Assembly: GCF_008014675.1 (NCBI RefSeq)
Contig: NZ_VOXD01000010.1
Coordinates: forward strand, 62,001-126,000
Direction: 5' to 3'
Origin: Neolewinella aurantiaca
Lineage (GTDB): Bacteria; Bacteroidota; Bacteroidia; Chitinophagales; Saprospiraceae
Length of the DNA stretch: 64,000 bases
Part shown: positions 857-62,534 of the stretch, one piece after another
Position numbering within the stretch: position 1 is the stretch's first letter
Layout: the number at the start of each line of letters is the position of its first letter
Notes under the pieces: model-generated
The model's database searches: none
What the model was told of the DNA's origin: nothing
The model's input: only the letters and a program-made list of their open reading frames with translations
Position numbers and translations under genes: made by a program

Positions 857-2410
857 ATGGAAGACACTTTAATCAGCCGGCGATGCCTCTTTACCTTGCT
901 TTTCATAGCCTTTCTCTGCACCTGCGGCCGCGCCCAGCATACAATACTGCAAAACGAAACTGCCGACCGCGAACTCCGGGCAGTTTGGATGGCTACCGTC
1001 CTGAACATTGATTACCCACAAAACCCTACCCCGAGTGCTGCAACCCTGCAGGCTGATTTTAAAAGCCAGCTCTACCGGCTGCGTCAGGCGGGCATGAACG
1101 CAATTTTTGTACAAGTTCGCCCCGCCGGAGATGCGATTTACCCCAGCAGTCTGGCCCCCTGGAGCGAATGGCTCACCGGCGTACAGGGCAAAGCCCCGGT
1201 CAGCGATTTCGACCCTCTGGCCTACATGATCAAAACTGCCCATGCGCAGGGCATCGAACTGCACGCATGGGTGAACCCCTACCGCGTTGCGATGACGATG
1301 GACAGTCTCGACAAAGCCCCCAACCACCTGCTGAACACCCACCCCGAATGGGTCCGCGCCTACAATGGCCGGCGCTACCTGGATCCCGGCCTGCCCGAAG
1401 TGCGCGCTCATCTCGGCGAAGTGATCGACGAACTGATCAGTAATTATGACCTCGATGGTATCCATTTCGATGATTACTTCTACCCCTACCCCGCCGCCGG
1501 GCAGCCCTTCCCTGATCGGGAAACCTTCGCCCGTTACAGGCGTAGCCAGCAACTGGCCGACTGGCGCCGCGGCAACGTGAATACCTTCATCGCAGAAACC
1601 CACCGCAGAATCAAAGCGAAGAAACCCTGGATTCACTTCGGCATCAGCCCTTACGGTGTATGGCGCAACCAAAGTCAGGACCCCGTCCGAGGCAGCGCTA
1701 CGCGCGCTTCGGTCAGCAGCTATGACGACCTCTACGGCGACGCCCTCCACTGGGCCAACAACGGTACGGTCGATTATCTGCTGCCCCAGCTTTACTGGAG
1801 CATGAACTACGCTCCGGCCGGTTATAAAGTGCTCGCCGACTGGTGGGCCGCCAACACCCCCGCCAGTGTTGCGCTCTACACCGGCCACGCAGCCTATAAA
1901 GTAGGCACCGACCCCGCCGACCCCGACGCCTGGAACACCCTCGAAGAGCTACCTAATCAAGTTGCCTACAACCGCAACCTGCCGGCAGTAAGTGGCAGCG
2001 TTTTCTTCAGTTCCAAATCCATCCTCCTCAATCCCTTCGGGCTTGCCCAGCGTATGGCCGACGTCTACCCCGCTCCCGCTTTACTCCCCGAAAGAATTGC
2101 CCCCTCCCCCGTTACGATGCGCAAGGTGAAAGTTTACAAACCCAAACGCACAGAAAAAGGGATGCTCCTGGTGTGGGAAGTAGACAAAAAACTGCCAAAA
2201 GAAGAAGTACCGTACTACTACGCAGTCTATCGTTCCGGCGGAGGAACTCCCACCACGCTACTGCACATAACTCCTTATGGCCAGGGGTGCCACCGACTCC
2301 ATTACTACGATACAACTGCGGATGCAGCAGTATCGTACGATTATGCTGTGGTGCCTTTAGACCGGTACCACCGGGCACTGTCCGGCAACCTGCAGGCTTC
2401 GGTTCGGTAG
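857..2410 (+). CDS. GHL10/DUF187 family glycosidase-like exported protein (YngK-like)
   Basis: 517 aa. The ATG at 857 is preferred to the TTG at 839 because it starts a compact signal peptide ending CTCGRAQ. Residues ~30-330 carry the signatures of the GHL10 TIM-barrel family: LRAVWMATVLNIDYP, AIFVQVRPAGDAIYP, a HAWVNPYR strand end and DGIHFDDYFYPYP with the conserved acidic pair. A C-terminal ~95-residue segment looks like a fibronectin-III-type domain. The family is thought to act on envelope or extracellular glycans, but few members have a proven substrate. The signal-peptide codons contain a copy of the dispersed DNA word (914-935). Transcribed convergently with the exonuclease gene 26 bp downstream. 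Confidence 0.85.
   Translation: MEDTLISRRCLFTLLFIAFLCTCGRAQHTILQNETADRELRAVWMATVLNIDYPQNPTPSAATLQADFKSQLYRLRQAGMNAIFVQVRPAGDAIYPSSLAPWSEWLTGVQGKAPVSDFDPLAYMIKTAHAQGIELHAWVNPYRVAMTMDSLDKAPNHLLNTHPEWVRAYNGRRYLDPGLPEVRAHLGEVIDELISNYDLDGIHFDDYFYPYPAAGQPFPDRETFARYRRSQQLADWRRGNVNTFIAETHRRIKAKKPWIHFGISPYGVWRNQSQDPVRGSATRASVSSYDDLYGDALHWANNGTVDYLLPQLYWSMNYAPAGYKVLADWWAANTPASVALYTGHAAYKVGTDPADPDAWNTLEELPNQVAYNRNLPAVSGSVFFSSKSILLNPFGLAQRMADVYPAPALLPERIAPSPVTMRKVKVYKPKRTEKGMLLVWEVDKKLPKEEVPYYYAVYRSGGGTPTTLLHITPYGQGCHRLHYYDTTADAAVSYDYAVVPLDRYHRALSGNLQASVR
914..935 (-). repeat. dispersed 22-bp DNA word, copy 1
   Basis: Reverse orientation, one mismatch to the consensus, core exact. It overlaps the end of the signal peptide of the GHL10 gene and reads there as CTCGRA. 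Confidence 0.75.
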
Positions 2411-2436
2411 CTTTAGCCTCAAGGCCGGCGGGACGG

Positions 2437-3186
2437 TTAATCCGCTACCTGCACCTGGTCATCTTCCAGCAACGGCTTGAGCTGGTAGCGGAAAAACAGC
2501 TGGGCCGTGGCCAGCACGTCTTTTTCGCAGTAAGTAGCAATGCGCTCCAAATCGTCTTCCTCCCAGAACACGCGGCCAACCTGACTGCCGTCGATGTCGT
2601 CCTTCGGGGTAGGAAAGCCCAGGACGCCCGCCAGGAGTTTCAGGGAAGTATAGGACTTGTAATCGCCGAATTTCCAAAGCTCCATTGTATCCAGGAGGTG
2701 CTTGGTTTCCCATGGCTTTTTACCGGCAATGTCGAGCATTTTCGGCAGCGGGAGCTGGTTAGCGATCAACCGCCGGCACATGTACGGCACGTCGAATTCC
2801 TTGATGTTATGCCCACAGATGAACTGGGTATGAATATTACCGTAGTACTGGTCGAGCATGGCGCTGAACTCCTGCAACAGTACTTTTTCGTCACGATCAG
2901 CGAAGGACTTGAGTCGAATTTTCAACCGTTTGTCTTTATCGCGGTAAACAGCCCCCACACTGATGCAGACGATCTTACCGAACTCAGCATAAATAGCGGC
3001 TTTATCGATATAACTGCTTGCGTTTTCCTCTTCGGTCAGTTCTTCGCCGTACCGCTTGAGCACTCCGGGGGCTTTCAGGCCCCAGAGGTACTGGAAGGTT
3101 TCGTCGAGGTCACTGTAAGTAGCGCGACCACTCACGGTTTCGATGTCAAGAAAGAGGACTTTGGTTGCGTCGATGTGCTCGATCAT
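2437..3186 (-). CDS. predicted 3'-5' exonuclease related to the PolB proofreading domain
   Basis: 249 aa, the full length of this stand-alone exonuclease family. The three DEDD-type motifs are visible: Exo I FLDIET (D14 and E16), Exo II in CGHNIKEFDVP near residue 125, and Exo III YCEKD near 215, a YxxxD arrangement (DEDDy). It should remove nucleotides from DNA or RNA 3' ends with two metal ions; the cellular substrate is not known. ATG at 3186 with an AT-rich upstream spacer. Convergent with the GHL10 gene. Confidence 0.85.
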   Translation of the reverse strand: MIEHIDATKVLFLDIETVSGRATYSDLDETFQYLWGLKAPGVLKRYGEELTEEENASSYIDKAAIYAEFGKIVCISVGAVYRDKDKRLKIRLKSFADRDEKVLLQEFSAMLDQYYGNIHTQFICGHNIKEFDVPYMCRRLIANQLPLPKMLDIAGKKPWETKHLLDTMELWKFGDYKSYTSLKLLAGVLGFPTPKDDIDGSQVGRVFWEEDDLERIATYCEKDVLATAQLFFRYQLKPLLEDDQVQVAD

Positions 3187-3331
3187 TAATGCTGTACTTT
3201 AGTATTCAGTAGGGATATTACCAAAGATACGCATTTAGTAGCAAATAGTTGAATTGTTGCAAAAACATTACTTATTTGATAATAAATAATTGAAGTGTCA
3301 CTTTGTGGCTTCTGGTATCTTCCGGTTATTG

Positions 3332-3353
3332 GGGCGCAAACGCAGGTGCAAAG
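3332..3353 (+). repeat. dispersed 22-bp DNA word, copy 2 (exact)
   Basis: Perfect match to the consensus with AAA in the variable triplet. It lies between the exonuclease start (3186) and the stop of the glycosyltransferase gene (3388) and continues into GTGGGTTTT, an extension shared with other intergenic copies. Confidence 0.9.
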
Positions 3354-3387
3354 TGGGTTTTGGGGAGGCAATGAATCGTTTCTTTTA

Positions 3388-4215: not shown

Positions 4216-5409
4216 CTAATTAAGGCGATAATAACCGGATTTCAGGTAAGCTCCTTCGGGGAACCCGATGGGGTGGTCGTCGTCGTGCGCAGTTTTTTCC
4301 AGCAGTGTCCATTTACGGCCTGAGGCCGTAAGAACTGCCTCCACCACCCGGAAGAAATCCTCTGCAGGCACCCGCGCCGAACAGGAGGCAGCGAGCAGAA
4401 TCCCACCCGGTTCGACCAGCGGAACGGCCAGTTTATTGATCCGGCGGTAAGCATCCAGCGCACCGGGGACTTCCTTTTCGCGCTTAGCGAAGCTGGGCGG
4501 ATCAACGATGACGACGCCGAAGGTTTCTCCTTTTTTTTGCATCCGCTCCAGGGCAACGAAGGCATCTTCGGCCAGGGTTTCGTGGCGGCGCTCTTCGCCG
4601 AAGTTCAGGACGACGTTGCGGCGGGCCATGGCAAGGGCCGGGGCGCTGATGTCCAGACTGACAACGCGGCGGGCTCCGCCGCCGAGCGCATGAACGCTGA
4701 AGCCGCCGGCATAGCTGAAGACGTCGAGCACGTCGTGACCTTTTGCCAGTTGGCCTATCCGCCGCCGGTTGGCGCGGTGATCGAGGAAGAAACCCGTTTT
4801 ATGGCCATGCACTACGTTGGCGACAAAAGATAAGCCGTGCTCCCGGAAGACAACGTCTTCGTCCGCCAGCTCACCGTGGATGACCTGTCCGTCGATAAAG
4901 CCCAAAGCCGCGGCGGCTTTTTCTACGTTGCGGGCGCAACGGAAGACGGCCGTTTCGGCCGCGGCGGCTTCAACGATGACCGGGATGAGACCGGAGAGCC
5001 AGGGGAACCAGACGGGAGAATAGACCTTGATGACGGCGACGCCGGCGTAGACATCGACGACCAGGCCGGGGAAGCCATCGTTCTCGCCGTGCAGCAGGCG
5101 GTATCCGTTCGTGTCCGTTGCAAGCAATGCCTCCCGAACCTTCTTTGCATCCTGCGTCCGCGCCCGAAAGAAATCGTTGTTGATCTGCGCCGGGCTACCC
5201 TGGTGTAACACCCGAATCCGGATCGGTGAATCGGGGTCGTAGAGCCCGACACCGATGAATTTGTTTTTCTTGAAGCTGAAGATCACCGCGAGGTCGCCGG
5301 CTTTGCCTTCGCCTTTGATTTTGGCTATTGCGCCATCGAACAGCCACGGATGACCGGATTTAAGGGCGCGCTCACCTGCGGCGGTGAGCGTTACGGGCAA
5401 ACGGTTCAT
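4216..5409 (-). CDS. rlmI: class I SAM-dependent rRNA cytosine methyltransferase (RlmI family)
   Basis: 397 aa, close to E. coli RlmI, which makes m5C1962 in 23S rRNA. A PUA domain occupies about residues 5-75 (LKSGHPWLFDGAIAKIKG). The Rossmann methyltransferase domain shows motif I DVFSYAGGFSVHALGGGA, an LDIS acidic strand end and VIVDPPSFAKR (motif IV). The ATG at 5409 is chosen because the PUA domain begins there; a longer frame to 5535 would overlap the gmhA gene. It starts 11 bases after the gmhA stop, so the two are probably one transcript. A one-base-longer variant of the dispersed DNA word lies inside (5143-5165) and encodes ARTQDAK. Confidence 0.85.
   Translation of the reverse strand: MNRLPVTLTAAGERALKSGHPWLFDGAIAKIKGEGKAGDLAVIFSFKKNKFIGVGLYDPDSPIRIRVLHQGSPAQINNDFFRARTQDAKKVREALLATDTNGYRLLHGENDGFPGLVVDVYAGVAVIKVYSPVWFPWLSGLIPVIVEAAAAETAVFRCARNVEKAAAALGFIDGQVIHGELADEDVVFREHGLSFVANVVHGHKTGFFLDHRANRRRIGQLAKGHDVLDVFSYAGGFSVHALGGGARRVVSLDISAPALAMARRNVVLNFGEERRHETLAEDAFVALERMQKKGETFGVVIVDPPSFAKREKEVPGALDAYRRINKLAVPLVEPGGILLAASCSARVPAEDFFRVVEAVLTASGRKWTLLEKTAHDDDHPIGFPEGAYLKSGYYRLN
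5143..5165 (-). repeat. dispersed DNA word, copy 3 (one extra base)
   Basis: Identical to the exact copies except for one inserted T after CTTTGCA. It lies inside rlmI, where the coding strand reads RARTQDAK. Confidence 0.6.
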
Positions 5410-5420
5410 GGACGGGTGAT

Positions 5421-7483: not shown

Positions 7484-7505
7484 GTGCGCTGACGCAGGTG
7501 CCGGA
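7484..7505 (+). repeat. dispersed DNA word, copy 4
   Basis: Core exact with TGA in the variable triplet; the AAAG end is replaced by CGGA. It lies in the spacer between the divergent ald and outer-membrane protein genes. Confidence 0.75.
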
Positions 7506-9659: not shown

Positions 9660-9681
9660 CCCGGCACCTGCGTTTGCGCCC
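9660..9681 (-). repeat. dispersed DNA word, copy 5
   Basis: Core exact with AAA in the variable triplet on the minus strand; the outer AAAG is replaced by CGGG. It lies five bases past the stop of the barrel gene and merges with the T-tract of the trxA terminator. Confidence 0.8.
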
Positions 9682-11616: not shown

Positions 11617-11638
11617 GGGCGCAGACGCGGGTGCAGGG
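11617..11638 (+). repeat. dispersed DNA word, copy 6
   Basis: Core exact with AGA in the variable triplet and purine G; the end is AGGG in place of AAAG. Lies in the divergent spacer between the PLP enzyme gene and the gene at 11782. Confidence 0.8.
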
Positions 11639-13003: not shown

Positions 13004-13531
13004 CTACTCCCACACTTTTTCGCCGATGCTGTCCGGCACGAAGCTACCCCACTTTTCGTTGTAGGTATGTAAACGTTCCGTAGGTTTCCCGTTAGCGTCT
13101 TCCAGCGGAAGACCGGCCAGTTTCCAGGCGTACAGGCTCCCGTAGAGATTGTACACATTCGTAAAGCCTCGTTTCCGAAGCTTTTTGGCGGCGCGTTCGC
13201 TGCGGTAGCCGACGGTGCAGTACACCACAACGGGCCGTGACTTATCGACGTCTTTCACCGTTTTGAGGTTGAGGTTATCGTAGCCAATATTAATTGCTCC
13301 GGGCAGATGACTAACGTCGTACTCAAAAGATTCCCTGGCGTCCAGAAACAGTACATTGTCCAGAGATGCAGCTTCTTTGGCGCTAACGGCCAGTTCGTCG
13401 GCAGATATGAGTTTCTCTAGTTTCTGGTCCAGCTGATCGTATCCCGTTTGCAGGCGGGCGGGCACATTCTGGGCGCGGCCGCAGGTTGCAAGGGAAAGGA
13501 CAAAGAGCAAGGAGGCGAGGGCTCGTTTCAT
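13004..13531 (-). CDS. exported rhodanese-domain protein
   Basis: 175 aa, starting at the ATG at 13531 (MKRALASLLFVLSLATCGRAQ). The signal looks like a classical or lipoprotein-type one, with Cys in LATC. The rhodanese fold covers about residues 45-150: LFLDARESFEYDVSHLPGAIN, then the active-site loop VVYCTVGYRSER with the catalytic cysteine in a CxxGxR loop. It would move sulfane sulfur or act as a thiol relay in the periplasm; the partner is unknown. It begins 29 bases after the hisH stop, so it is probably co-transcribed with hisH, an odd pairing. A one-base-longer copy of the dispersed DNA word forms the end of its signal peptide. Confidence 0.8.
   Translation of the reverse strand: MKRALASLLFVLSLATCGRAQNVPARLQTGYDQLDQKLEKLISADELAVSAKEAASLDNVLFLDARESFEYDVSHLPGAINIGYDNLNLKTVKDVDKSRPVVVYCTVGYRSERAAKKLRKRGFTNVYNLYGSLYAWKLAGLPLEDANGKPTERLHTYNEKWGSFVPDSIGEKVWE
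13471..13493 (+). repeat. dispersed DNA word, copy 7 (one extra base)
   Basis: GGGCGCGGCCGCAGG is intact, then an extra T and GCAAGG. On the coding strand it reads TCGRAQ at the end of the rhodanese signal peptide. Confidence 0.55.
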
Positions 13532-19913: not shown

Positions 19914-19935
19914 GGGCGCTTGCGCGGGTGCAAAG
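19914..19935 (+). repeat. dispersed DNA word, copy 8 (exact)
   Basis: Exact consensus with TTG in the triplet and purine G, followed by ATCGTTTTTT. It lies between hisD (stop 19984) and hisC (start 19763), inside the his operon. Confidence 0.9.
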
Positions 19936-43427: not shown

Positions 43428-46400
43428 ATGCAACACACCCAGACTTTTCTTCGCCTCCTTTCAGGAATTTTCCTGTTGGCCCTGCCTTATACCCTTGCGG
43501 CTCAGGTCCCGGCCAACGACACCCTTCTGATCGATTTCGGCAACAACCTTTCTCCCGCACCGTGGAATAACGTCACCGATCCGGCGGTACCGGACACCAT
43601 CACGCTCGCTAACTCGGCGGGCTTCACTACTACCTATGGCCTTTCCGTTTCGGATCCCTTCAACAACATCAACACGGGAGGCACCCAAACCCCGGATGAG
43701 GGCCTTGGCTTCCCGGCTACCGCAACCGGAGACAGCTTCTTCGGGAGCGTAACGGACTTCGGCGGTCAGATTCAGCCTACCGGCGGGGTAACCCTCGTTG
43801 GGCTCATTCCGGAAAAGGACTACACCATTACCTTATTTGCCTCCCGCGAAGCAACCGACAACCGCGAGGCACAGTACGTGGTGTCCGGCAGCACCACAGA
43901 AACCCTCCTGCTGGATGCGGCGAGCAATACTTCAGTAACAGTTTCCACAACGGTACGACCCGACGCCGATGGTTCCATTACGGTAACCGCAGGTCCTGGC
44001 CCCAACAATACCAACTCGGCTGGTTTTTACTACCTGGGCGCCATGAAGGTTATTTACGAACACGAAGAGGTGGCGCTGCCGCAGGATACAATACTGGTGG
44101 ATTTCGGCAGCGTGATCAGCCCCGCTCCCTGGAACAATATGTCGGATCAAGTAACGGGCAACATCCGCAACCTCGCCAACACCGCAGGCTTTGCTTCATC
44201 CTACGACATCGTCGTCGTTGACCGGTTCAACGGTATTAACACCGGAGGCACCCAGACACCAGACGAAGAGTTGGGTTACCCTGCCTCTGTTACCGGAGAC
44301 AGCTTCTTCGGTAGCGTAACCGAATTTAGTGGCCTGACGGAGCCAACGGGAGGCTTTCATCTTCGTGAGCTTCGCCCGGAGAAGTCTTACACCATCACCC
44401 TCTTTGCTTCCCGTGACGCTGCCGACAACCGGGAGGCGCAGTACGTTCTCGCAGGCGCTTCAGCAGACACGCTGTTGCTCAATGCCTCCGACAATACGGG
44501 AATGACCGTTACGACGACCCTCTTCCCTGCCGCAGACAGCACAATAACCATCACTGCGGCCACCGGCCCGAACAACGACAACGGATCCGGATTCTACTAC
44601 CTCGGAGCCCTGAGCATAAACTACGACGCTGAGGAGCGTCCTCCAGTAGTGGACAATGGCGGAGATACTTTGTTGATTGACTTCGGCGACATCCTCTCCC
44701 CCACGCCCTGGAACAACGTTACCGACCCTGCATCGGATACCACAATCCAACTCTTGCTCGCCGACGGCAGCCTGAGCGCGATCAGCCTCACCGTGATTGA
44801 TTCCTTCAACAGCATCAACCGCAACGGGACGGTGTCTCCTTCTTCAGCGCTTGGCCTTCCGGCCACGGCTACGGGAGACAGTTTCTTCGGCAACGTGACG
44901 CCCTTTACCGGTCAAACCCAGCCTACCGGCGGGGTCGAGTTGGCCAACATGAACCCGGAAACGCCTTACTTCTTCAGCCTCTTCGCTTCCCGCAGCGCGT
45001 CTGACAACCGGGAAGCCCAGTACATCGTACAAGGGATGAACACCGACACCGTCTACCTGGATGCAGCCTCTAACGACGATAGCGCAGCGACCATTATTGC
45101 TTACCCCGGAGAAGATGGCACCGTCCGGATCACCGCAGGCCCCGGCCCGAACAACGACAACAGCTCTGGCTTTTACTACCTCGGGGCGATCAAGGTAGGC
45201 TTCGAGTCTGAGCCCGCAGTTTCGCCCTTCGATACCGTCCTCGTCGATTTTGGTGGTACTACCGTGTCTCCAGCCCCGTGGAACAACGTCACCGACCCCG
45301 TAGCGGGCATCATCGGCGACCTGTCTAACACCAGCGGTTTCCAGACCGGTTACGGTCTTGAGATGACGGACGCCTTCAACAACATCAACACCGACGGCAC
45401 CATCAATCCGGCTGCAGAGCTTGGCTTCCCTGCTACCGCCACCGGCGATAGTTTCTTTGGCAACTCAGTCGATTTCGGTGGACAGGTTCAGCCCACCGCA
45501 GCGGTTACCCTGACCAACCTTACAGTAGACAAAGCGTACACCCTCGATATTTTCGCCTCGCGCACAACCAGTGAAAACAGAGAGACACAGTACGTGGTAG
45601 AGGGCCTTACCACCGACACCGTCTACCTCAACGTAGCGTCCAATTCGGATATGCTGGCTACTACGACAATGCTTCCTGCGACCGACGGGACCATCGTCGT
45701 GACCGCAACGGCTGGCCCGAACAACGTCAACTCCTTCAGCTTCTACTACCTCGGAGCCCTCCGCTTGGTGTACGAAAACGAAGCCCCTGCCGGAGGCACC
45801 TCTCTGGCGTTGCTTGCTCCGAACGGAGGCGAATTCCTGCAAGCCGGTAAAACCACAGACATCCGCTGGGAAAGCCGTAACCTGTTCAGTGTCGACCTAG
45901 AATACTCCGCAGATGCGGGCGCCAACTGGTCGCCAATTGAGACGGTACCCGCCATCGGGCAATCGTACAATTGGACCATCCCGGCTACTGCCACCACAGA
46001 AGGTCTGATTCGGATTACCGCAGACACGCTTACGGATACCAGCGACGACGTCTTTGAGATTTCCCTCGATTCCACTTCGTGTAACATTGTAGTGCTCGGT
46101 TCTTCCACTGCGGAAGGTGCGGGTGCTTCTTCACCGGATAGTTCCTGGGTCAACCGGTTCAGTCAGTACCTGGCGGGCGACTCCCGCTATGAGGTGACCA
46201 ATCTTGGCCGTGGTGGCTACACGACTTACCACATTCTTCCTACCGGTACTTCCATCCCGGCAGGGGTAAACATCAGCGTTGACCAAACGCGCAACATAAC
46301 CCGTGCCCTCGAGCTGGATCCCTTCGCCATCATCATCAACATGCCGTCCAACGATGCGGCCAACAACTTCTCGGTAGCGGACCAACTTGCCAACTTCCGC

Positions 46401-47469: not shown

Positions 47470-49344
47470 ATGCAAGCATTTAAGGTATTTTCTTGGACAG
47501 TATTTTATGTAATGATCGTAAGCCAGAGTAGCCAATTGCTCGCCCAGCCAGAGGCTGCAACGGGTGTAACAGCTACGGCTTACGATCACCATATAGAGCT
47601 AAACTGGGATCAGCACCCAAATCCTTCCGTCAACACAATGCGGGTGTATGGCTCGATAGACGGTGCTGAGTATACGCTGCTCGGCAGCGTGAACAGCGTA
47701 ACGTTCAACTATGTAGACTTCGTCGGTGACTTCGATGTAACCAGCAGCTACTATCTGCGTGCGGTGGGATCCGGAGGTCAGCTGGGAACTCCATCTGACA
47801 CCGTAACGGCGACAACATTCGAGATGAACGATTCGATGTTGCTGGACATGGTACAAGCCTATACCTTTCGGTACTTCTACGACTTCGGCCACCCTACTTC
47901 GGGCCTGGCAAGAGAGCGAAACACCACCGCAACGGTAACCTCCGGTGGCAGCGGCTTCGGAATAATGGCATTGATTGTCGGCGCAGAACGTGGTTTTATC
48001 ACCTACGAGCAAGCGCGGGTGCGGACGAGTAAGATTGTCGACTTCCTCCTGACGGTTCCCCGCTTCAAAGGAGCCTTTTCCCACTGGATGAACGGTGCTA
48101 CGGGAGCGGTGATTCCCTTCAGTCCGCCCGACGACGGTGGAGACCTGGTGGAAACCGCCTTCCTTATGCAAGGCCTGCTCACTGCCCGACAGTACTACAC
48201 CGGAGACTCCGCAGAAGAGATTGCGTTGCGCGAGAACATCACCCAGCTCTGGGAGGACGTGAACTGGGATTGGTACCGTAAAGAAAGCAACGAGGATGTG
48301 CTGTACTGGCACTGGTCGCCGACGAACAACTTCTCCATCAACCTGCAGCTGCGGGGTTTCAACGAAACCCACATCGCCTACATCCTGGGTATTGCTGCCC
48401 CGAATGCCGAGCACAGCATCCCGGCGTCGCTTTATCATACTGGTTGGGCTGGTGGTGCTTACGAGAATTCTCTTGGCTACTACGGCATTCCCCTGATTGT
48501 CGGCAGGGGAAAAGGAGGTCCGCTGTTTTTTACCCACTACAGCTATCTCGGCTTTGACCCGCGGGGAATCAAGGACCAGTACGCCAACTATTTTGTAGCC
48601 AACCGCAACCACACGCTCATCAACTACGAGCACTGTGTAGACAACCCTTACAACTGGGAAGGCTACGGCCCTAATAGTTGGGGTCTCACCGCGAGTGACG
48701 ACCCCGATGGTTATCTGGCCCACGCGCCCGACAGCCGCCAAACCGACAACGGAACCATCAGCCCCACCGCAGCGCTGAGTTCAATGCCCTACACCCCGGA
48801 AAAAAGCATGGACGCCCTCAAGTATTTCTACCGTGAATTGGGCGACGAAATGTGGGGTCCGTATGGTTTCTATGACGCCTTCAACGCAGACCGAAATTGG
48901 TACGCCAACTCTTACCTGGCCATCGATCAGGGTCCCATTATTTGTATGATCGAGAACCACCGCAGCGGTTTACTCTGGGACTTATTCATGCGTAATCCGG
49001 AGATCGAACCTGCCCTGGAAGCCATAGGTTTTACGACTGACTCAACTATTGTAAGCAATGAAGAAATACCTCAGTTCCTAACCTCACCTCCAAGTATTTC
49101 ACCCAATCCGGTCAGGGGTACCACCACGCTAACCCTTGCGCTGGATCGGGCAGGGGCAATAACAGTTAATCTGTTTGGGGCCGACGGCCACAACCACGGG
49201 CTTGTCCTCGAGCCGGGTCTGCTACAACCGGGCTCTCATCAACTCACCTTGCACCTGCGACCGCGCCTGAAGAACGGCCTCTACTACTTAAGAATTAACG
49301 GTCCGGGAGGATCGGCTATACTGCCGATCATTCTCGCCGACTAG
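47470..49344 (+). CDS. glucoamylase-family (GH144-type) glycoside hydrolase, T9SS-secreted
   Basis: 624 aa. Signal peptide to LLAQ, a fibronectin-III-type domain (residues ~28-115, ATGVTATAYDHHIELNWDQ), then the ~420-residue (alpha/alpha)6 glucoamylase-like domain: TFRYFYDFGHPTSGLARERN, GSGFGIMALIVGAERGFIT, GLTASDDPDGYLAHAPDS, DNGTISPTAALSSMPYTPE, GPYGFYDAFNADRNWYA and AIDQGPIICMIENHRSGLLW. These are hallmarks of PF10091, which includes GH144 endo-beta-1,2-glucanases. The C-terminal ~80 residues are a T9SS sorting domain (ISPNPVRGTTTLTL). A secreted endo-glucanase is the likely role; substrate by family only. Confidence 0.85.
   Translation: MQAFKVFSWTVFYVMIVSQSSQLLAQPEAATGVTATAYDHHIELNWDQHPNPSVNTMRVYGSIDGAEYTLLGSVNSVTFNYVDFVGDFDVTSSYYLRAVGSGGQLGTPSDTVTATTFEMNDSMLLDMVQAYTFRYFYDFGHPTSGLARERNTTATVTSGGSGFGIMALIVGAERGFITYEQARVRTSKIVDFLLTVPRFKGAFSHWMNGATGAVIPFSPPDDGGDLVETAFLMQGLLTARQYYTGDSAEEIALRENITQLWEDVNWDWYRKESNEDVLYWHWSPTNNFSINLQLRGFNETHIAYILGIAAPNAEHSIPASLYHTGWAGGAYENSLGYYGIPLIVGRGKGGPLFFTHYSYLGFDPRGIKDQYANYFVANRNHTLINYEHCVDNPYNWEGYGPNSWGLTASDDPDGYLAHAPDSRQTDNGTISPTAALSSMPYTPEKSMDALKYFYRELGDEMWGPYGFYDAFNADRNWYANSYLAIDQGPIICMIENHRSGLLWDLFMRNPEIEPALEAIGFTTDSTIVSNEEIPQFLTSPPSISPNPVRGTTTLTLALDRAGAITVNLFGADGHNHGLVLEPGLLQPGSHQLTLHLRPRLKNGLYYLRINGPGGSAILPIILAD
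49247..49268 (-). repeat. dispersed DNA word, copy 17
   Basis: Core exact with ACC in the triplet; two end mismatches. It reads HLRPRL inside the T9SS sorting domain of the GH144-type enzyme. Confidence 0.75.
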
Positions 49345-49381: not shown

Positions 49382-52084
49382 ATGCAAAGAGTTTTATTTT
49401 TCTTAATGGTTGCCTTTTTCTGCGGCACCCTGAGTGCCCAGGTGGTGCTCGAAGACTTCGAAGGCGGCATCGCCGACCTGCCCTGGAATGCCTTTGAGGG
49501 CACCTACGATGGTCCCGTCCTGAACCCGGAAGACACTACTGGCATCAACCCCAGCGAATGGGTCGGATCGTACACCAAAGCCGGCGACCGTGCCTACAGC
49601 TACTTCGTCGCTCAACTCGCCGACCCGCTTGACCTGAGCGTCAACAACCAGTACTCCATCCAGATCAATGCCGGTGCGGCAACCCAGTTGCTGATGAAGC
49701 TTGAAGGCGGGGGCAACAGCATCGAAAAGATTGTCAACATCCCCACCCCAAACGTCTGGAGAACCTACACCTTCGACTTCAGTGCTGCCGCTGGCTTTAC
49801 CGGCATGACGGACATCATCCTCTTCTTCGATCCCGGAGTAGAGACCAGTACCGACACTTACCTGTTCGACAACCTGATCGCCAGTCCAGCCGGCGACTGC
49901 GCGGGCACGGAGGCAGACCCAACCATCCTCGACGACTTCGAATGCCAGCGCAACGCCAGCTACGGCGTACCCGGATTCGACGACATCACCGCCATTGCCA
50001 ATCCTGATCCTTCCGGCATCAACACCAGTACCACCGTTGGCCAGTACACCGATCAGGAAGGCGCGTTCCACGCATTGGTGATAGATTACAACGGCGCGAT
50101 CGATCTTAGCGTGAACAACCAGCTTTGTCTCAAAGTATGGGCTCCGGTTGCGGGTGATTTGCTCTTCAAAATCGAAGGAGGTGCTTCCGCTGCTTTTGAA
50201 ATGGCACAGACCATTACGGAAACCGAAACCTGGGTGGAAGTCTGCCAGGATTTTAGTGCACAAGCTGGTGGTGATTACGGCCAGTTCACCTTATTCCTCA
50301 ACGCCGGCCAGGACGGCACCGGTGACATTTACTACCTCGACGACATCACCCTGACGCCAGCTCCTGCCGCCGAAGCCATTGAAGATTTTGAGGACGGTGC
50401 CAGCCTTGCCTGGAACCCGCTGAACGATAATAACGCCCTGCACGGCACCTTTGCTGTGGTGGCCAACCCCGATGCCACGGGCATCAACACCAGCGACAAC
50501 GTAGGAAGCTACGTGCGCGGATCTTCCAACTTTGCCACCCTCACCTCTTCGCTGCTGGAAGGTATCGATCTTAGCGGCAACCCCCAATTGAATATCGATG
50601 TACTCGCCCCTGCCGGAGCGACGACCGTTACGATGAACCTCATCAGCGCCCTCAACGGTGCCACGAGTGTAAACGCCGACGTTACCACCCCTGGCAGCTG
50701 GGAGACCCTGAATTTCAACTTCGAAGGTGTTGCTGACGTAACCGATTTTGGCGAAATCCAACTTCAGTTCGACCCCATGACCACCGGTACCGGACAGTAC
50801 TACTTCGATAACCTTGTACAGGGCGCAAGTACCGTAGATGTTTGTGCTGACGTTGAGCCGGACCTGGACATCTTGGACGACTTCGAGTGTCAGCGGAACG
50901 CCAACTACACCTGCTGCGACGTAACCGTAGTGCCGGTCAACAACCCCGACATTACCCCGACCAACTCCAGCGCTAAAGTAGGAGAAGTAACGGATCCTCC
51001 CGGTAGCTTCAACGCCTTGGTGCACGACAACGTCGACGCCTTCGACTTCGAGGTAAAGAACCGTCTACAGGCGAAAGTATGGGCTCCGGTTACCGGTCAG
51101 ATTCTCTTCAAACTGGAAGGTGGAGACAACCCAGCGGTTGAATTTTTTGCTGACATCCCCGTTGCCAACGAATGGGTCGAATACGAAATCGACTTCAGTG
51201 GCGCTGCCGGCCAGGGCCATACCCGATTAGTGATCTTCTTTGGTGCAGGTGGAGAAAACACGGAAAACAACATTTACTACATTGACGACCTGCAGTTTTC
51301 CCGTGCTCCTTACGTAAACGATTGCGTAGTCACCTTCGAGAACGAAGACGAAACCATCAGCAGCTGGGCTTACTTCGCCAACGGTGCGCTGGAGGGCAAT
51401 GAGTTCATCATTTCCGACAACCCGAATGCTTCCGGCATCAACACAAGTGCTAAAGTGGGTACTTTCGAAGAAGCTGCAGACGGCGAGGAATTCGCCGGTA
51501 TGTTTGCTGACACGAAAGCACCGATCATCCTACCCACCAGTAATAAAGTGGTGAAGATGAAAATGCTGATGCCTGTAGCCGGAGACGTAGTACTGAAACT
51601 GGAGGGCGGCCCCGAAGAGCTACCACAATCCGGAGACATTTTTGCTCAGTACACTACCCCCGGCGAGTGGCAGGAACTGACCTTTGACATGAGTGTAGTA
51701 CCCGACGACGCCCCTTACACCCGCCTCACCTTGATTCCTAATTTCGGTGTAATCCCGGCAGAGACGCTGACTTTCTACTTCGATGATATCGCGGTAGGTA
51801 ACGGCTCCTGCATCGCTACTTCCATTTTCACACCTGTGGTAATCGACGATCTCCGTGTTTTCCCCAACCCTGTGCGTACTGTACTGACAATCGACAAGCC
51901 CGAAGGTGCCGTTTCCTTTGAACTCACTAACATGCTTGGTCAGAATGCGAAGCGCCTTAGCGTTGATAGGGCGCAAACGCAGGTGCAATGGGACGTTAAT
52001 GAACTGCCCGTTGGAACCTACGTACTGACCGCCCGCTCGGCGAACGGAATGCCCGTTGCCCGCACCATGATCATTCACGAATAA
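49382..52084 (+). CDS. T9SS-secreted protein with five tandem carbohydrate-binding-like domains
   Basis: 900 aa, signal peptide ending LSAQ. Five repeats of ~155-175 residues begin VLEDFEGG, ILDDFECQRNASYG, AIEDFEDGASLAW, ILDDFECQRNANYT and VTFENEDETISSW. Each has a central LLMKLEGG or LFKLEGGD-type strand and ends with a YYFDNL or YYLDDI motif, a jelly-roll pattern like CBM-type beta-sandwiches. A T9SS domain ends it (VFPNPVRTVLTIDKPEG). No catalytic domain is visible, so it is best seen as a cell-surface glycan-binding protein. It lies between the two GH144-type genes, one base before the second. Confidence 0.8.
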   Translation: MQRVLFFLMVAFFCGTLSAQVVLEDFEGGIADLPWNAFEGTYDGPVLNPEDTTGINPSEWVGSYTKAGDRAYSYFVAQLADPLDLSVNNQYSIQINAGAATQLLMKLEGGGNSIEKIVNIPTPNVWRTYTFDFSAAAGFTGMTDIILFFDPGVETSTDTYLFDNLIASPAGDCAGTEADPTILDDFECQRNASYGVPGFDDITAIANPDPSGINTSTTVGQYTDQEGAFHALVIDYNGAIDLSVNNQLCLKVWAPVAGDLLFKIEGGASAAFEMAQTITETETWVEVCQDFSAQAGGDYGQFTLFLNAGQDGTGDIYYLDDITLTPAPAAEAIEDFEDGASLAWNPLNDNNALHGTFAVVANPDATGINTSDNVGSYVRGSSNFATLTSSLLEGIDLSGNPQLNIDVLAPAGATTVTMNLISALNGATSVNADVTTPGSWETLNFNFEGVADVTDFGEIQLQFDPMTTGTGQYYFDNLVQGASTVDVCADVEPDLDILDDFECQRNANYTCCDVTVVPVNNPDITPTNSSAKVGEVTDPPGSFNALVHDNVDAFDFEVKNRLQAKVWAPVTGQILFKLEGGDNPAVEFFADIPVANEWVEYEIDFSGAAGQGHTRLVIFFGAGGENTENNIYYIDDLQFSRAPYVNDCVVTFENEDETISSWAYFANGALEGNEFIISDNPNASGINTSAKVGTFEEAADGEEFAGMFADTKAPIILPTSNKVVKMKMLMPVAGDVVLKLEGGPEELPQSGDIFAQYTTPGEWQELTFDMSVVPDDAPYTRLTLIPNFGVIPAETLTFYFDDIAVGNGSCIATSIFTPVVIDDLRVFPNPVRTVLTIDKPEGAVSFELTNMLGQNAKRLSVDRAQTQVQWDVNELPVGTYVLTARSANGMPVARTMIIHE
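51969..51990 (+). repeat. dispersed DNA word, copy 18
   Basis: One mismatch (AATG for AAAG), AAA in the triplet as in copy 2. Reads RAQTQVQ in the sorting domain of the five-repeat protein. Confidence 0.85.
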
Positions 52085-55957: not shown

Positions 55958-58951
55958 ATGCGACAACGTATCCTGTTCTTCCTTGCTCTTTTTACCTTCC
56001 TTTGCACCAGCGTCAGCGCCCAAACAACGGTAAGCGGAATCGTGACCGGCGACGGAGATCCGCTGATTGGCGTGAGTGTACGGGCCAATAACAGCTCCTC
56101 CGGAGCCGTAACCGATCTCGACGGAAGGTACGAGCTCTCCCTGCCAGCTGGCAGCGACAGCCTCTATTTCACTTACATCGGTTTCGCGCCGCGCGCCGAA
56201 GCCGTCAACAACCGCAGCATCATTGATATTGAGCTGTCCGAAGCATCCGAATTACTGAGCGAAGTGGTCGTGATCGGCTACGGTGTTCAGAAAAAAGATG
56301 ACCTCACCGGGTCGGTCTCTGTCGTTTCCACCGAAGACCTTGTAGACGTTCCTACCCAATCACTTGGCCAGGCGCTTCAGGGCAAAGTCTCCGGCCTGCA
56401 GATCATCCCCGGCTCCGGTACGCCGGGAGCCGATGCCATCTTCCGCATCCGGGGCGTGGGTACGCTGAACAATGCGGACCCTCTCTTCGTGGTCGACGGG
56501 ATGATTCTGAGCGATATATCCTTCCTCAATCCTCGCGATGTGGAGAGTGTATCGGTACTTAAAGACGCTTCCGCAACGGCAATTTACGGAGCTCGCGGTG
56601 CGAACGGTGTAATCATCGTGACGACCAAGCAGGGCGCGGACGCGGGTGCAGGGCGCATCTCGGTGAGTGCTTACACCGGCACGCAGGAAGTCGTTAAAAC
56701 CATTGACGTGGCGAACGCAACCGAATACGCCACCCTCATCAACGAAGCGGACATCAACGAAGGCCGGCCGGCCCGGTACGCCAACCCCGAGCAGTACGGC
56801 GAGGGTACCAACTGGCAGGATGAGATCTTCCAGACCGCTCCTATTCAGAATATTCAGGCGAGTTTTGCTGCAGGCAACGATGTTTCGTCGTTCAACCTTA
56901 GCGCTAATTACTTCAAGCAGGAAGGCATCATCAAAGGCTCCGATTTTGAGCGGTTCACAGCCCGCATCAATACCACCCGCAAAGTAAAAAGCTGGCTGCA
57001 GCTGGGCACCAACATCGGGCTCATTCTCGGTTCCTCCGACAACGTAAATTCGGGCGGTATTTTGCTGAATGCTTACCGGGCCGACCCCATTACTGCTCCG
57101 CGCGACTCGTTGGGTAATTTCGGCAACACGGCCATCCGGGGCAACACCGGCAACCCGCTTGCCACCATCGAATTCAACAACAACAAAAGCCAGGATTACC
57201 GGGCAGTTGGTAATGCATTTGCCAGCGCGAGCCTGGGCGAGCACTTTACCTTCCGGACCAGCTTCGGGCTCGATTTCACTTACGCCAAAAACCGTGCGTT
57301 CACTCCCGTATTCTTTGTATCAGCCAGCCAGCAGAACGAAGAGAACAACATCAGCGTCTTCAATGCCTACCGCAGAAACTGGTTGTGGGAGAACACACTC
57401 ACCTACAATCAATCCTTCGGCAAACACAACGTAGACGGTCTGGTGGGAGTTACCTCGCAGGACAACTTCGGAGAATTCATCAGTGGTGGCCGGCAGCGGC
57501 TGATTGGCGAAGACCCTTCGCTGTTCTACCTCAATGCCGGAGACGTAACGACCGCTACCAACAGCAACGGTACCTTTGGTGGTAACTGGGGCCTGCTCTC
57601 TTACCTGGGGCGGATCAACTACACCTACGACAGTCGTTACCTCCTTACGGTTTCGGGGCGGGTTGACGGTTCTTCCCGCTTCGGAGACAACAACCGTTAC
57701 GGCTTCTTCCCTTCCGTCGGGCTGGGCTGGAACGTCAGCCAGGAAGAATTCTGGAACGCCAGCGGAGCAATAAGCCGGCTCAAACTGCGGGCGAGCTGGG
57801 GGCAAACCGGCAACGACCGGATCGGAGACTTTGGTTACACACCGCTGGTCAGCAGCGGCGTCAATGCCGTATTCGGAGTCGATGAAATTCTGCTGCCGGG
57901 TGCCACCCTCCAAACGCATTCCAACCCTGACCTGAAGTGGGAGACCACCACCCAAACGGATTTTGGTATCGAGCTCGGTTTGCTCGACAATCGTCTTCAG
58001 CTGGAAGCCGATGCTTACCGCAAAGTAACCAGCGGCGTACTGTTCAATGCTCCCATCCCCGACTACATCGGTGCCGGAGCAGCCGTCCGTAACATCGCGG
58101 AGGTACTGAACCGTGGCCTCGACCTCAAGCTGGAGTGGCGGGAAGTCCGGGGCGCGCTCAGCTACTCGCTGGGGGGGAACCTCAGCCTGGTACACAACGA
58201 AGTACTTAAACTTGACGGCGAACAGAACGATTTCTTCGCCGGAGGCCTCGGCATCGGCGGGCAGTTGGGCACCAACTCCCGGGCGGGATTTGCCGCCGGT
58301 TCTTTCTGGGGCTACGAGATCGACGGCGTCTTCCAGAACCAGGAGGAAGTCGATCAGTTTGCCACCCTGGGCACCCAACGGCCGGGCGATCTGCGCTTCA
58401 AGGATCAGAATGGTGACGGTGTAATCACTCCGGACGAAGACCGTGTGGTGCTCGGCTCTGCTATTCCCGACGCGATCCTGGGCCTGAACGGCTCGGTTGC
58501 CATCAGTGGTTTTGACCTCACCTTCGACTTCACCGGTCAGTTCGGAAACGAAATCATCAACGCAAAGAAGATGTCCCGCTTCGGCGCTTACAACTATGAA
58601 GTCAGTTTCCTGGACCGCTGGAACGGCGAAGGCACCAGCGACACCGAGCCACGAGTTACCCTGGCCGGGCAGAACATCGAAACCCTTTCTTCCCGTTTTG
58701 TGGAAGACGGCTCTTACATCCGCCTGAGAAACCTGACCGTAGGCTACACCTTACCCAAGGCCGTAACCGACCGCTTGCGGATGCAATCGTTCCGGCTTTA
58801 CCTCAGCGGCACCAACTTGTGGACGTCAACGGATTACTCCGGTTACAACCCGGAGATTTACAACGGCTCCGTTTTCGACAACGGTATCGACAGGGGAGAT
58901 ATCTACCCCATCGCCAAAACCATCACGGCTGGCCTCGACATCCAATTTTAA
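55958..58951 (+). CDS. susC: SusC/RagA TonB-dependent outer-membrane transporter
   Basis: 997 aa. Signal peptide MRQRILFFLALFTFLCTSVSAQ, CarboxypepD_reg-like domain (residues ~24-105: TVSGIVTGDGDPLIGVSVRANN), TonB box region, then the plug (QALQGKVSGLQIIPGSGTPGADAIFRIRGVGTLN, ILKDASATAIYGARGANGVIIVTTKQG) and a 22-strand barrel ending ITAGLDIQF. It imports oligosaccharides in complex with the SusD lipoprotein encoded next. It begins 23 bases after bglX. Two dispersed DNA words lie inside, one in the signal peptide and one at GADAGAG. Confidence 0.95.
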   Translation: MRQRILFFLALFTFLCTSVSAQTTVSGIVTGDGDPLIGVSVRANNSSSGAVTDLDGRYELSLPAGSDSLYFTYIGFAPRAEAVNNRSIIDIELSEASELLSEVVVIGYGVQKKDDLTGSVSVVSTEDLVDVPTQSLGQALQGKVSGLQIIPGSGTPGADAIFRIRGVGTLNNADPLFVVDGMILSDISFLNPRDVESVSVLKDASATAIYGARGANGVIIVTTKQGADAGAGRISVSAYTGTQEVVKTIDVANATEYATLINEADINEGRPARYANPEQYGEGTNWQDEIFQTAPIQNIQASFAAGNDVSSFNLSANYFKQEGIIKGSDFERFTARINTTRKVKSWLQLGTNIGLILGSSDNVNSGGILLNAYRADPITAPRDSLGNFGNTAIRGNTGNPLATIEFNNNKSQDYRAVGNAFASASLGEHFTFRTSFGLDFTYAKNRAFTPVFFVSASQQNEENNISVFNAYRRNWLWENTLTYNQSFGKHNVDGLVGVTSQDNFGEFISGGRQRLIGEDPSLFYLNAGDVTTATNSNGTFGGNWGLLSYLGRINYTYDSRYLLTVSGRVDGSSRFGDNNRYGFFPSVGLGWNVSQEEFWNASGAISRLKLRASWGQTGNDRIGDFGYTPLVSSGVNAVFGVDEILLPGATLQTHSNPDLKWETTTQTDFGIELGLLDNRLQLEADAYRKVTSGVLFNAPIPDYIGAGAAVRNIAEVLNRGLDLKLEWREVRGALSYSLGGNLSLVHNEVLKLDGEQNDFFAGGLGIGGQLGTNSRAGFAAGSFWGYEIDGVFQNQEEVDQFATLGTQRPGDLRFKDQNGDGVITPDEDRVVLGSAIPDAILGLNGSVAISGFDLTFDFTGQFGNEIINAKKMSRFGAYNYEVSFLDRWNGEGTSDTEPRVTLAGQNIETLSSRFVEDGSYIRLRNLTVGYTLPKAVTDRLRMQSFRLYLSGTNLWTSTDYSGYNPEIYNGSVFDNGIDRGDIYPIAKTITAGLDIQF
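56000..56021 (-). repeat. dispersed DNA word, copy 19
   Basis: One mismatch at the purine position; TCA in the triplet. Reads CTSVSAQ at the end of the SusC signal peptide. Confidence 0.7.
56632..56653 (+). repeat. dispersed DNA word, copy 20
   Basis: Core exact with GGA in the triplet and purine G; the end is AGGG as in copy 6. Reads GADAGAG in SusC, almost the same residues as copy 9 in hisD. Confidence 0.8.
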
Positions 58952-60497: not shown

Positions 60498-61532
60498 TCA
60501 GTACAACTCTTCCCGCATCCCCACCAGCCTGCCCGCTGCCATCGCCTTGTCGACGGTAGCGGGCAAGTTGCTTTTAGCGGCGTACGCTTCGAGCGCTGCC
60601 AGCCTGCTTTCTGCCATTTCAAGCACCGTATCCAGGGGGAAAGCGCCCGCTTTTACCCGCAGCAGAAAGTCGCGGTCTGGCCGTAGGACGTTCAACTGGC
60701 CATCGCGAAAAATTTCGATGGCCATGTCGAGAAGCCGGATCGTGTGCATCATATTTTTAGAGTCGTAGCCCTGGCCGTGGCTCAGAGTAGACTCGTAGCG
60801 GACATCGTTGCGGGCACCGACCCACTGCCAGTATTCGCGGTGGTTTCGGCAGTAGACCGAGTAGCCATCGTGATTGAAGGAGAGATAGGTGAGACACTTC
60901 TGGCCTTTGGGGACACTACTCAGGTGTACGTCGTTTGCATTCGGCCCGCTGGTGATTCCTTCGGCCCAGGTACCGCCAGGATCGTGGTAAACAGCGTAAA
61001 CGCCTCTGGTATGATCGATGCGTACGAGGGCGAGATCGCAGGATGCAAAGGAGGTTTTTGAGAGCCAGGTAAGCAGAGGTATGCTTTTGCCGTCGGTGAG
61101 TACATAACAGAAGTGTTCTACCGGTTTACGCTCCTTCGGCATCGGGTTGTGGACTTTTTTGTTCAGTCCGCGCGCCTTCCGGATTTGGGTAATTGCGTAA
61201 CCGGCGAAGGTGTTTTTGCACGCTTTGGTCAGGAAGTCTTCGATCCGCAGTTGTTCCATAACCGGGTGGCGGTAGAGAATGGCCTCCGCCGGGCTGGCGA
61301 GTAGTTCGAGGGCCGTCGGGTTGGCCTTTGTGAGCAGTTCAACGAAGCGACCGAGTTCGTAGTAGACCCGGTCATTATTCGCGTCGGCAACCTGCTCGGG
61401 GGCGGCGCCTGCATAGAAGTCATGTTTGGCTGCGTAAAACACACCCCGGAAATCTTCGTCCGATGTTTCGGTGGCAAGGCCGTAGGCATGGGAGCCGGAG
61501 CGACAATTCAGGAGGAGGTTTTCTACCTTCAT
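60498..61532 (-). CDS. RlaP-type nucleotidyltransferase, copy A
   Basis: 344 aa. The N-terminal polymerase-beta-like core has GSHAYGLATETSDEDFRGV (GS motif with the metal-binding D/E pair) near residues 13-31, then FVELLTKANPTALELL and a helical C-terminus. The family (PF10127, RNA-ligase-associated protein) is predicted to add nucleotides to RNA or another acceptor; its activity is not established. No RNA ligase gene is in view. A second member is encoded just upstream. Confidence 0.82.
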   Translation of the reverse strand: MKVENLLLNCRSGSHAYGLATETSDEDFRGVFYAAKHDFYAGAAPEQVADANNDRVYYELGRFVELLTKANPTALELLASPAEAILYRHPVMEQLRIEDFLTKACKNTFAGYAITQIRKARGLNKKVHNPMPKERKPVEHFCYVLTDGKSIPLLTWLSKTSFASCDLALVRIDHTRGVYAVYHDPGGTWAEGITSGPNANDVHLSSVPKGQKCLTYLSFNHDGYSVYCRNHREYWQWVGARNDVRYESTLSHGQGYDSKNMMHTIRLLDMAIEIFRDGQLNVLRPDRDFLLRVKAGAFPLDTVLEMAESRLAALEAYAAKSNLPATVDKAMAAGRLVGMREELY

Positions 61533-61544
61533 ATCTCTTTCAGT

Positions 61545-61600
61545 GGTTGAGCGCTTGTAGCGCGGTAAACGCTGCGAGATCGGGCTACAAACGCTCGACC
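61545..61600. repeat. hairpin between the two nucleotidyltransferase genes
   Basis: GGTTGAGCGCTTGTAGC (61545-61561) pairs with GCTACAAACGCTCGACC (61584-61600) at 15 of 17 positions. It starts like the 54-bp palindrome at 40085 (GGTTGAG). Confidence 0.6.
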
Positions 61601-61610
61601 TAAGCAGTGT

Positions 61611-62384
61611 TCAATAGCCGATCAGGTCGCGGAACAGGGCGTCGGCTTCGGTACGTTCGGTGGTTCTGCGTGGGGTTTCGTCCAGCAATGTACTGGTTGT
61701 TTCCCGGAAGGTATCGAAGTAATCGGTCAGCAGCTGCGGAACGACTATACGGTGGCTTTCGCCTACGGTAACTTTGTGAGCGATGAGTTCATCCAGCACA
61801 TTTCTAATCTCTGTGGACTTGATGCGCGCCAGTAGCTCGGCAAAGGTAACGGGCGGGTTATGCCCTTCGCGGAGAACGTAGTCGGCGGCGAGAATAGGCC
61901 GGAGGAAGTAGAAATATTTCTTCAAATTCCAATTGTCTGAAGCCTCGTCGTAACCGGCTAGTTTCGCACTGCGGGCAATACCGAGGTAATGGGCGGCTAC
62001 TTTCGCTGGCTGGAAGTAATTCGCCGACAGGGCTCTGAGTTGCACCAGAAAGCCTTCCTCCAGGTGGTAAACGACCGGCGAATAAAGCCACTCAATCACT
62101 CCGGCATTACTGCCAGCAATATGACTGAGTACTTTACGGAGATCCCACCCTGCAAGGTCAAGCTCTCCGTCCAGTTCCATAATGGGGCCAATCATATCTT
62201 TGGGTCGATCAAGGCGGAGGTACCATTCTTTTGGGTGCTGATAGATGAAACGAACATCGTAGTCCGAATCAGTGCTTTCCAACCCCCAGGCGCGGCTACC
62301 GGATTCGTTGGCGTGCCGAATTGTAATGCCTCGCTCAACGGCGACTTCGCTCAAGCGGGTAGTGATAAAACTGGTGGTAAGCAT
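61611..62384 (-). CDS. RlaP-type nucleotidyltransferase, copy B
   Basis: 257 aa from the ATG at 62384. The core motif is ESGSRAWGLESTDSDYDVRFIYQHP (GS, then D-x-D), followed by ELDGELDLAGWDLRKVLSHIAGSNAGVIEWLYSP. It belongs to the same PF10127 group as copy A but is shorter and lower in identity. The two are on the same strand 78 bases apart, so they are probably co-transcribed; the hairpin between them may set their ratio. Confidence 0.82.
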   Translation of the reverse strand: MLTTSFITTRLSEVAVERGITIRHANESGSRAWGLESTDSDYDVRFIYQHPKEWYLRLDRPKDMIGPIMELDGELDLAGWDLRKVLSHIAGSNAGVIEWLYSPVVYHLEEGFLVQLRALSANYFQPAKVAAHYLGIARSAKLAGYDEASDNWNLKKYFYFLRPILAADYVLREGHNPPVTFAELLARIKSTEIRNVLDELIAHKVTVGESHRIVVPQLLTDYFDTFRETTSTLLDETPRRTTERTEADALFRDLIGY

Positions 62385-62512
62385 ACGTTGAGAATGCAAT
62401 GAGGCTGAAGAAAAGTTGCGGCTCCCGCCGCCCGGTTATGAGCAGTCGTTCCGAGTTTTTACGCTATAAACCACAGTCGGAGGCCGGGACGAGCGATGTT
62501 GCTCCACCCTTT

Positions 62513-62534
62513 CCTTGCACCCGCGGCCGCGCCC
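62513..62534 (-). repeat. dispersed DNA word, copy 21
   Basis: One mismatch; GCC in the triplet and purine G. It lies five bases past the stop of the barrel gene at 62540, the same placement as copy 5. Confidence 0.85.

Follow-up and report, generated by a model that had tools for sequence, protein, structure and literature searches.

A dispersed DNA word with species dialects and alternating orientation in Neolewinella aurantiaca and its genus, resembling an uptake sequence

Uptake words are, in the literature cited here, those of the Neisseriaceae and the Pasteurellaceae, which are read by type IV pilus systems. The DNA uptake sequence (DUS) of the former has a length of 10-12 bases, and the uptake signal sequence (USS) of the latter consists, in its extended form, of a T-tract, a strong core and weaker flanking segments. 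In the current analysis a stretch of 64,000 nucleotides of Neolewinella aurantiaca (contig NZ_VOXD01000010.1, positions 62,001 to 126,000), referred to as the window, has been analysed together with further genomes of the genus and family with respect to a dispersed word with the core GCGCNNNCGCRGGTGC (GCGC-N3-CGCRGGTGC), which an earlier inspection of the window, referred to as the original prediction, had noticed. The T-tract, core and flanking segments of this word resemble the layout of the extended USS, although the USS core is unrelated to it. Like USS, the word is evenly spaced and lies on both strands, in and between genes (PMC7811141, PMC1939737), and like DUS it is present in many copies, genic as well as intergenic, and is spelt in dialects that differ between species in agreement with the phylogeny (PMC3630211). 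It differs from DUS, which is read by the pilin ComP (PMC3868556), in its approximately 47 graded positions, in its alternating orientation and in that no pilus ATPase is evident. The word itself is unrelated to the known words, and a DUS- or USS-like receptor for it would probably be unrelated to the known receptors.

The arrangement of neighbouring words also sets it apart from USS. Uptake words of Haemophilus are described to have no orientation bias around the chromosome (PMC1939737), and close inverted USS pairs of H. influenzae overlap within 14 bp and are of the terminator type (PMC7811141), whereas facing pairs of the present word are 34-199 bp apart and neighbours of the same orientation are avoided. 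The passages of PMC1939737 and PMC7811141 considered here contain no statement on an exclusion between USS of the same orientation. Among the Bacteroidota, Riemerella columbina is described to prefer its own DNA in transformation; no word has been defined for it and the k-mer table of that study shows only A/T-rich words (PMC7965970). Transformation in Riemerella needs ComEC, DprA and other components of unknown mechanism (PMC8459023). For Bacteroidetes, Lewinella or Saprospiraceae no report on an uptake word was present among the literature matches listed, most subscription journals lying outside that search. Chi sites are overrepresented words of 5-8 bases whose orientation matters and which are skewed with replication; the present word shares with them the overrepresentation and the orientation dependence, without their shortness and replication skew. 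It is neither palindromic nor confined to one region, as sites of the matS/parS type are; each 50 kb of a 300-kb stretch contains 19-22 sites. Repetitive extragenic palindromic (REP) sequences and miniature inverted-repeat transposable elements (MITE) arrive by insertion, which is not what is seen at hisD and polA; transposases of the REP-associated tyrosine type (RAYT) were outside the search.

The dispersed word is confirmed and is more abundant than first stated. The window contains 13 exact matches to the core, the number originally reported, and with up to two mismatches the core occurs 27 times, against a mean of 5.3 and a largest value of 11 in 100 shuffles. All 21 copies of the original prediction were recovered with starts within one base of those given, 10 on the + and 11 on the - strand; its list was an undercount, having left out copies at 39205(+) and 61029(+) and a weak one at 44072(+), which with a score of 10.3 falls just under the profile threshold of 10.5. 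The genome holding the window (G000; 5,995,659 bases in 104 contigs) encodes 1,110 copies of the exact core (560 forward and 550 reverse) against a single one for the pattern read backwards.

Conservation extends beyond the core, as revealed by the alignment of 94 exact sites from a 464-kb sample of G000 comprising the window and 20 stretches of 20 kb. A T-rich tract at positions -8 to -3 precedes the core (0 to 16), which is followed by an A and an A/G-rich segment up to position 20, by GGTT at 24 to 27 and by purines until about 37. The iterated 47-position profile derived for this sample, a motif of about 30 bits, identifies 182 sites at or above the threshold, a density of 0.4 per kb, whereas the reversed control gives 3; a score of 20 or more is attained by 166 sites and by none in the control. 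The motif is hence graded over about 47 positions instead of having the length of 22 bp given before. It is not palindromic, and a variant that is longer by one base, CGCAGG(A/T)TGCAAAG, retains the flanks.

The sample is 87% coding according to our own simple caller of open reading frames (ORFs). The 182 sites comprise 99 coding and 82 intergenic ones and one on an edge, and since 158 coding sites would be expected from coverage, intergenic DNA is enriched in words. They are divided 93/89 between the strands and use six of the six frames, in agreement with the original prediction of at least five; its division of the window copies into 11 genic and 10 intergenic becomes, with our ORF calls, 12 of the 21 in genes and 9 between them. 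The predicted genes of the sample contain 41 exact cores, against a mean of 1.78 and a maximum of 4 in 50 synonymous-codon shuffles. The earlier view that the conservation acts on DNA is borne out by this excess over genes of the same codon use, and the copies are by no means restricted to the window.

The first 100 bases of genes have 18 antisense words against 2 in the sense direction. The antisense words at 914, 13472, 31604, 36766 and 56000 of the window are situated in signal-peptide-like starts. Antisense words in such starts encode peptides that are alike (LCTCGRAQ, LGTCVPAQ and LCTSVSAQ; also FLCTCVRAQ), which suggests that the DNA word may shape signal peptides. The 21-base pattern is also represented in 20 stretches on 18 viral contigs, a count that comes without a chance expectation, and a plasmid look-up with one gene gave one partial match.

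The words of G000 are spaced more evenly than in simulations that place them at random while keeping each in its coding or intergenic class (coefficient of variation 0.745 against 1.02 simulated, standard deviation 0.08), with none of the 500 simulations as even; contig C1 has 19-22 sites per 50 kb across 300 kb. Orientation is balanced overall, as had been reported, and what had gone unreported is that neighbours alternate. Opposite orientations were found for 131 of the 162 pairs of adjacent words (p about 8e-16), including 53 of the 56 pairs spaced by less than 1.5 kb, and isolated single words more than 1.5 kb apart also alternate (32/38). When all pairs below 1.5 kb are considered, those of the same orientation number 3 against 54 expected, with recovery by about 3 kb, and those of opposite orientation 58 against 54. 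Pairs less than 200 bp apart face each other with their AAAG sides in 17 of 19 cases, the facing pairs being separated by 34-199 bp; words in signal peptides may contribute in part to this asymmetry.

The orientation counts in related species cover the genomes other than G063, G065, G072, G074, G075, G076 and G077. Seven relatives with the same core have 11 same-orientation pairs below 1.5 kb against 45 expected and 49 opposite ones against 45. Neighbours in 13 other species are opposite in 193 of 287 cases (p about 5e-9), and in 78 of 100 below 1.5 kb. The alternation differs between species, with 21/25 in G061, 17/21 in G071, 28/36 in G067 and 39/59 (p 0.02) in G069, in which same-orientation pairs below 1.5 kb number 6 against 18 expected. 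Given this uneven strength, the orientation rule is strongest in G000 and its near relatives. Replication polarity was considered and rejected: a run of + sites among the G062 matches listed is taken as an artefact of the listing, as 80 kb of G062 gives 7 + and 9 - exact sites.

Comparison of orthologous loci shows words in corresponding positions in species across the genus. The hisD genes of 17 of the 21 genus genomes have the exact core pattern at the same codons with no adjoining gap, the site of G064 being taken from the match list and not from an aligned row. GGGCGC (Gly) is read there in seven species, each with at least 514 copies, and Cys in the other 13 readable rows. The evolution in place proposed by the original prediction for hisD is thereby upheld; the ADAGA residues are themselves conserved, so that the hisD word may be partly driven by the protein.

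Another such site is the polA linker, where 18 of the 20 species that could be assessed share a word of antisense orientation. The spelling is form A in 13 species and form B in G073, G006 and G078, G071 having a CAGGTA ending and G074 a GGTAC ending; form B is present in three of the four species of the B-group. The word lies about 9 codons further on in G066 and G078. No word was found in the polA linkers of G072 and G069. What looks like a left half-word, a T-tract with GGGCGCGGACG, is present in the linker of G072 (L299), where the right half is missing. The persistence at the same place in hisD and polA across the genus indicates that at least these words evolve in place.

A wider comparison comprises 32 pairs at 15 coding sites, 15 of the pairs being hisD. 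The word is kept in 17 pairs, partial in 3, absent without a gap in 7 and absent with a nearby gap in 5. Gaps near word sites (9/32) are in excess of those in control windows (48/640), from which it appears that words favour pliable segments; insertion may have occurred at single sites outside hisD and polA.

The word family is represented in all 21 genomes of the genus, with 4 to 1,315 copies of the exact core and reversed controls totalling 0-9. Each of 59 genomes belonging to the other genera of this family has 0-5 copies of the exact core. At least four spellings have been identified in the genus: GCGC-N3-CGCRGGTGC, a form with GGCGGGG, one with a longer spacer, and GCAAAGTAGCA. Every genome of the 21 has one or more of these dialect patterns in hundreds of copies. 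GGCGGGGNCGCRGGWGC is found 529 times in G078, 410 in G067, 398 in G006, 312 in G073, 227 in G066, 152 in G070 and 135 in G000, with at most 74 in other genomes. GCGSCGGNGCGCRGGW, with the longer spacer, has 595 copies in G079, 555 in G071, 205 in G064, 187 in G070, 185 in G065, 155 in G073 and 151 in G006, and at most 71 elsewhere; reversed controls for both patterns give 0-1 per strand. GCAAAGTAGCA has 331 copies in G069 (control 1) and at most 5 in other genomes, where the reversed control reaches 11; the word profile of G069 likewise opens with a T-tract.

A polA tree of 19 species separates each of the dialect groups A, B and C from the remainder by a single branch, with supports of 57/17 (low) for A, 88/86 for B and 81/82 for C; G069 has the outermost position and a long branch. 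The dialects are consistent with the phylogeny, the groups being assigned by judgement since some species are mixed (G064, G066, G067 and G070). A de novo search in five genomes of other genera (G003, G018, G031, G040 and G035), covering 40-80 kb of each, gave no comparable word, although rarer ones could escape it; a T-tract/A-tract palindrome was detected in G018 and local repeat arrays in G003 and G040.

We read the word, with somewhat more confidence than doubt, as a self-recognition sequence for natural transformation. The abundance, the even spacing, the dialects, the persistence at the same place and the use of any frame are marks of uptake words and lead to this reading. We infer a role of the word's reader in DNA uptake, maintenance of the word by a recombination bias, and a strand-specific action. 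A receptor in the cell envelope would prefer free DNA with a good word, and the DNA taken up would be recombined into the chromosome, where incoming alleles with the word would outnumber those without. As word-bearing alleles would enter more often, point mutations towards the word would accumulate wherever tolerated, in genes as well as between them. With drift of the receptor preference the words would slowly be re-spelt in place, which would give rise to dialects. Each word would serve one strand or direction, such that a second one of the same orientation within about 2 kb would add little and one of opposite orientation nearby would still count; the orientation rule suggests such a strand-specific or directional action. 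ComEC is encoded in 21 of the 21 genus genomes and DprA in 20, being missing in G077, which is 55% complete.

Several observations weigh against an uptake word. ComEC and DprA are also encoded in many word-less control genomes, and uptake in H. influenzae has been described as not depending on orientation (PMC1939737). Some relatives show little or no alternation (10/17 in G066, 14/24 in G078 and 4/13 in G064), and G069 has no deficit of same-orientation pairs below 500 bp (5 against 6 expected). At polA the re-spelling of the dialect is partial, as the ordinary spacing persists in G079, G064 and G070, which belong to the longer-spacer group. The ATPase family of pili and type II secretion systems (PF00437) gave only short weak matches, covering at most about 85 of 370 positions, in a search that left the secretin and pilin families aside; the best E-value is 1.3e-5, 11 of 21 genomes are marginally above the cut-off and the one match examined is a ClpB-like AAA protein. 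A pilus system of the Neisseria/Haemophilus type is therefore not supported, and as its machinery was not found we do not class the word as a DUS or USS, though it would work like one. A more specific proposal, which is possible and yet rather doubtful, is an uptake system of Bacteroidota without type IV pilus that reads the word asymmetrically, the orientation deciding which strand or side is imported or recombined and a hypothetical fast-evolving DNA-binding envelope protein serving as the receptor that sets the dialects. Because of the asymmetric reading, words of the same orientation would exclude each other over about 2 kb and opposite ones would not.

Among the roles offered by the original prediction, in which neither dialects nor alternating orientation had been seen and whose interpretation is partly supported, an uptake-like word fits best; a recombination word and a site for a chromosomal protein are retained with lower weight. 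In a Chi-like recombination word, to which we assign a small probability, a travelling helicase-nuclease would be altered in one orientation, and each orientation would for that reason need its own evenly spaced series. Exclusion between words of the same orientation, with little effect between opposite ones, is what is expected of such a directional reader. The motif of about 30 bits is however at variance with the 5-8 bases of Chi sites, the sampled contigs are without strand skew (the 93/89 division mentioned above, with origin and terminus not located) and the dialect changes inside one genus. The very even density along contig C1 and the alternating orientation would also suit a site for a chromosome-organising protein that spaces domains or loops, with orientation acting as in loop anchors; this appears improbable in view of the fast change of dialect, the uniform spread without concentration in one region and the lack of a palindrome.

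The orientation rule alone could potentially be explained by deletion, as direct repeats recombine and delete and inverted ones do not, so that same-orientation neighbours would be purged whatever the role of the word. The same-orientation pairs of G000 are indeed rarest at the shortest distances, but the deficit extends to 1.5-2.5 kb with genes between, and alternation is also seen among isolated words at distances above 1.5 kb, which makes purging an unlikely cause. A small self-spreading repeat of the REP/MITE type, present as single copies and inverted pairs, would agree with the facing of close pairs and with the excess of gaps near coding sites. It is nevertheless considered highly improbable, given the gap-free conservation at the same place in hisD, the same-place words in the polA linker and the seven comparisons with neither word nor gap; moreover, the sequences between paired words are unlike by eye and over half of the sites are coding. 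The in-place evidence thus disfavours a self-spreading repeat, with few sites being well covered.

If the uptake reading is true, the word would add an independent example from a different phylum, spelt in at least four ways within a single genus and with no evident pilus ATPase. Self-marking of genomes would then evolve repeatedly, an unknown receptor would be pointed to, and the preference of Riemerella columbina for its own DNA would gain a testable cause. Theories of uptake-word evolution would need to account for the alternating orientation, which is a quantitative signature.

Table 1. Copies of the word in the 64-kb window, with profile scores and context from our own ORF calls.
Feature	Position	Strand	Score	Context
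word	914..934	-	40.9	antisense in ORF 839-2410 (LCTCGRAQ)
word	3333..3353	+	42.4	intergenic
word, one-base-longer variant (GGATGC)	5144..5164	-	31.6	in ORF 4216-5535 (rRNA methyltransferase)
word	7485..7505	+	26.8	intergenic
word	9660..9680	-	35.8	intergenic
word	11618..11638	+	33.2	intergenic
word, one-base-longer variant (GGTTGC)	13472..13492	+	25.1	antisense in ORF 13004-13552
word	19915..19935	+	31.5	intergenic
word	20536..20556	-	35.3	in hisD (GADAGAK)
word	23853..23873	+	29.0	intergenic; facing pair with 23894..23914
word	23894..23914	-	34.5	intergenic; facing pair with 23853..23873
word	26558..26578	+	33.5	antisense in ORF 25714-26925 (APAAAP)
word, one-base-longer variant	31604..31624	-	20.2	antisense near start of ORF 31493-32509
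word	33690..33710	+	36.1	start of hemB ORF 32553-33743
word	36766..36786	-	40.5	antisense in ORF 36526-40083
word, new to list	39205..39225	+	33.4	in ORF 36526-40083 (GEAAGAM)
word	40471..40491	-	31.5	intergenic
weak possible word	44072..44092	+	10.3	
word	49247..49267	-	39.0	antisense near end of ORF 47470-49344 (HLRPRL)
word	51970..51990	+	34.5	near end of ORF 49382-52084 (RAQTQVQ)
word	56000..56020	-	39.9	antisense at start of SusC-like ORF 55958-58951 (FLCTSVSAQ)
word	56633..56653	+	23.7	in SusC-like ORF 55958-58951 (GADAGAG)
word, new to list, one-base-longer variant	61029..61049	+	20.7	antisense in ORF 60498-61532
word	62513..62533	-	36.8	intergenic

At the place of the window word 13472..13492, which has GGTTGC, G074 has GGATGC. 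The word at 33690 lies at residue 11 of its ORF and the match to hemB starts only at residue 68, so that this word may lie before the true start codon. Genes for SusC and the type IX secretion system (T9SS) are among the genes of the window; together with the relatives of its hisD they are the basis in the present data for an assignment to the Bacteroidota. A known RNA element as the identity of the word has been rejected, since Rfam at gathering thresholds identifies only tRNA-Phe in the window.

Other repeats have been noticed in the course of the analysis. In G040 (L153-L154) a repeat, TGGTTCGATTACGA, has 42 copies in 40 kb and by its number is similar to clustered regularly interspaced short palindromic repeats (CRISPR), and G079 (L160:367-935) has a tandem array with 12 copies of a unit of about 50 bases, TGCTTTTGGAGC. 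Inverted-repeat elements with ends like CCAAAGTGGTTTGGGAC, at L037:4684-4851 and L037:17772-17855, resemble a small mobile element; several copies of them were detected in G075 and G068, and a single match in G061. The segment 21286-21405 of the window, situated before the hisD match and read as an extension of the ORF, is similar to about 30 further loci of G000, of which several are near contig ends, and constitutes a second, different dispersed repeat.

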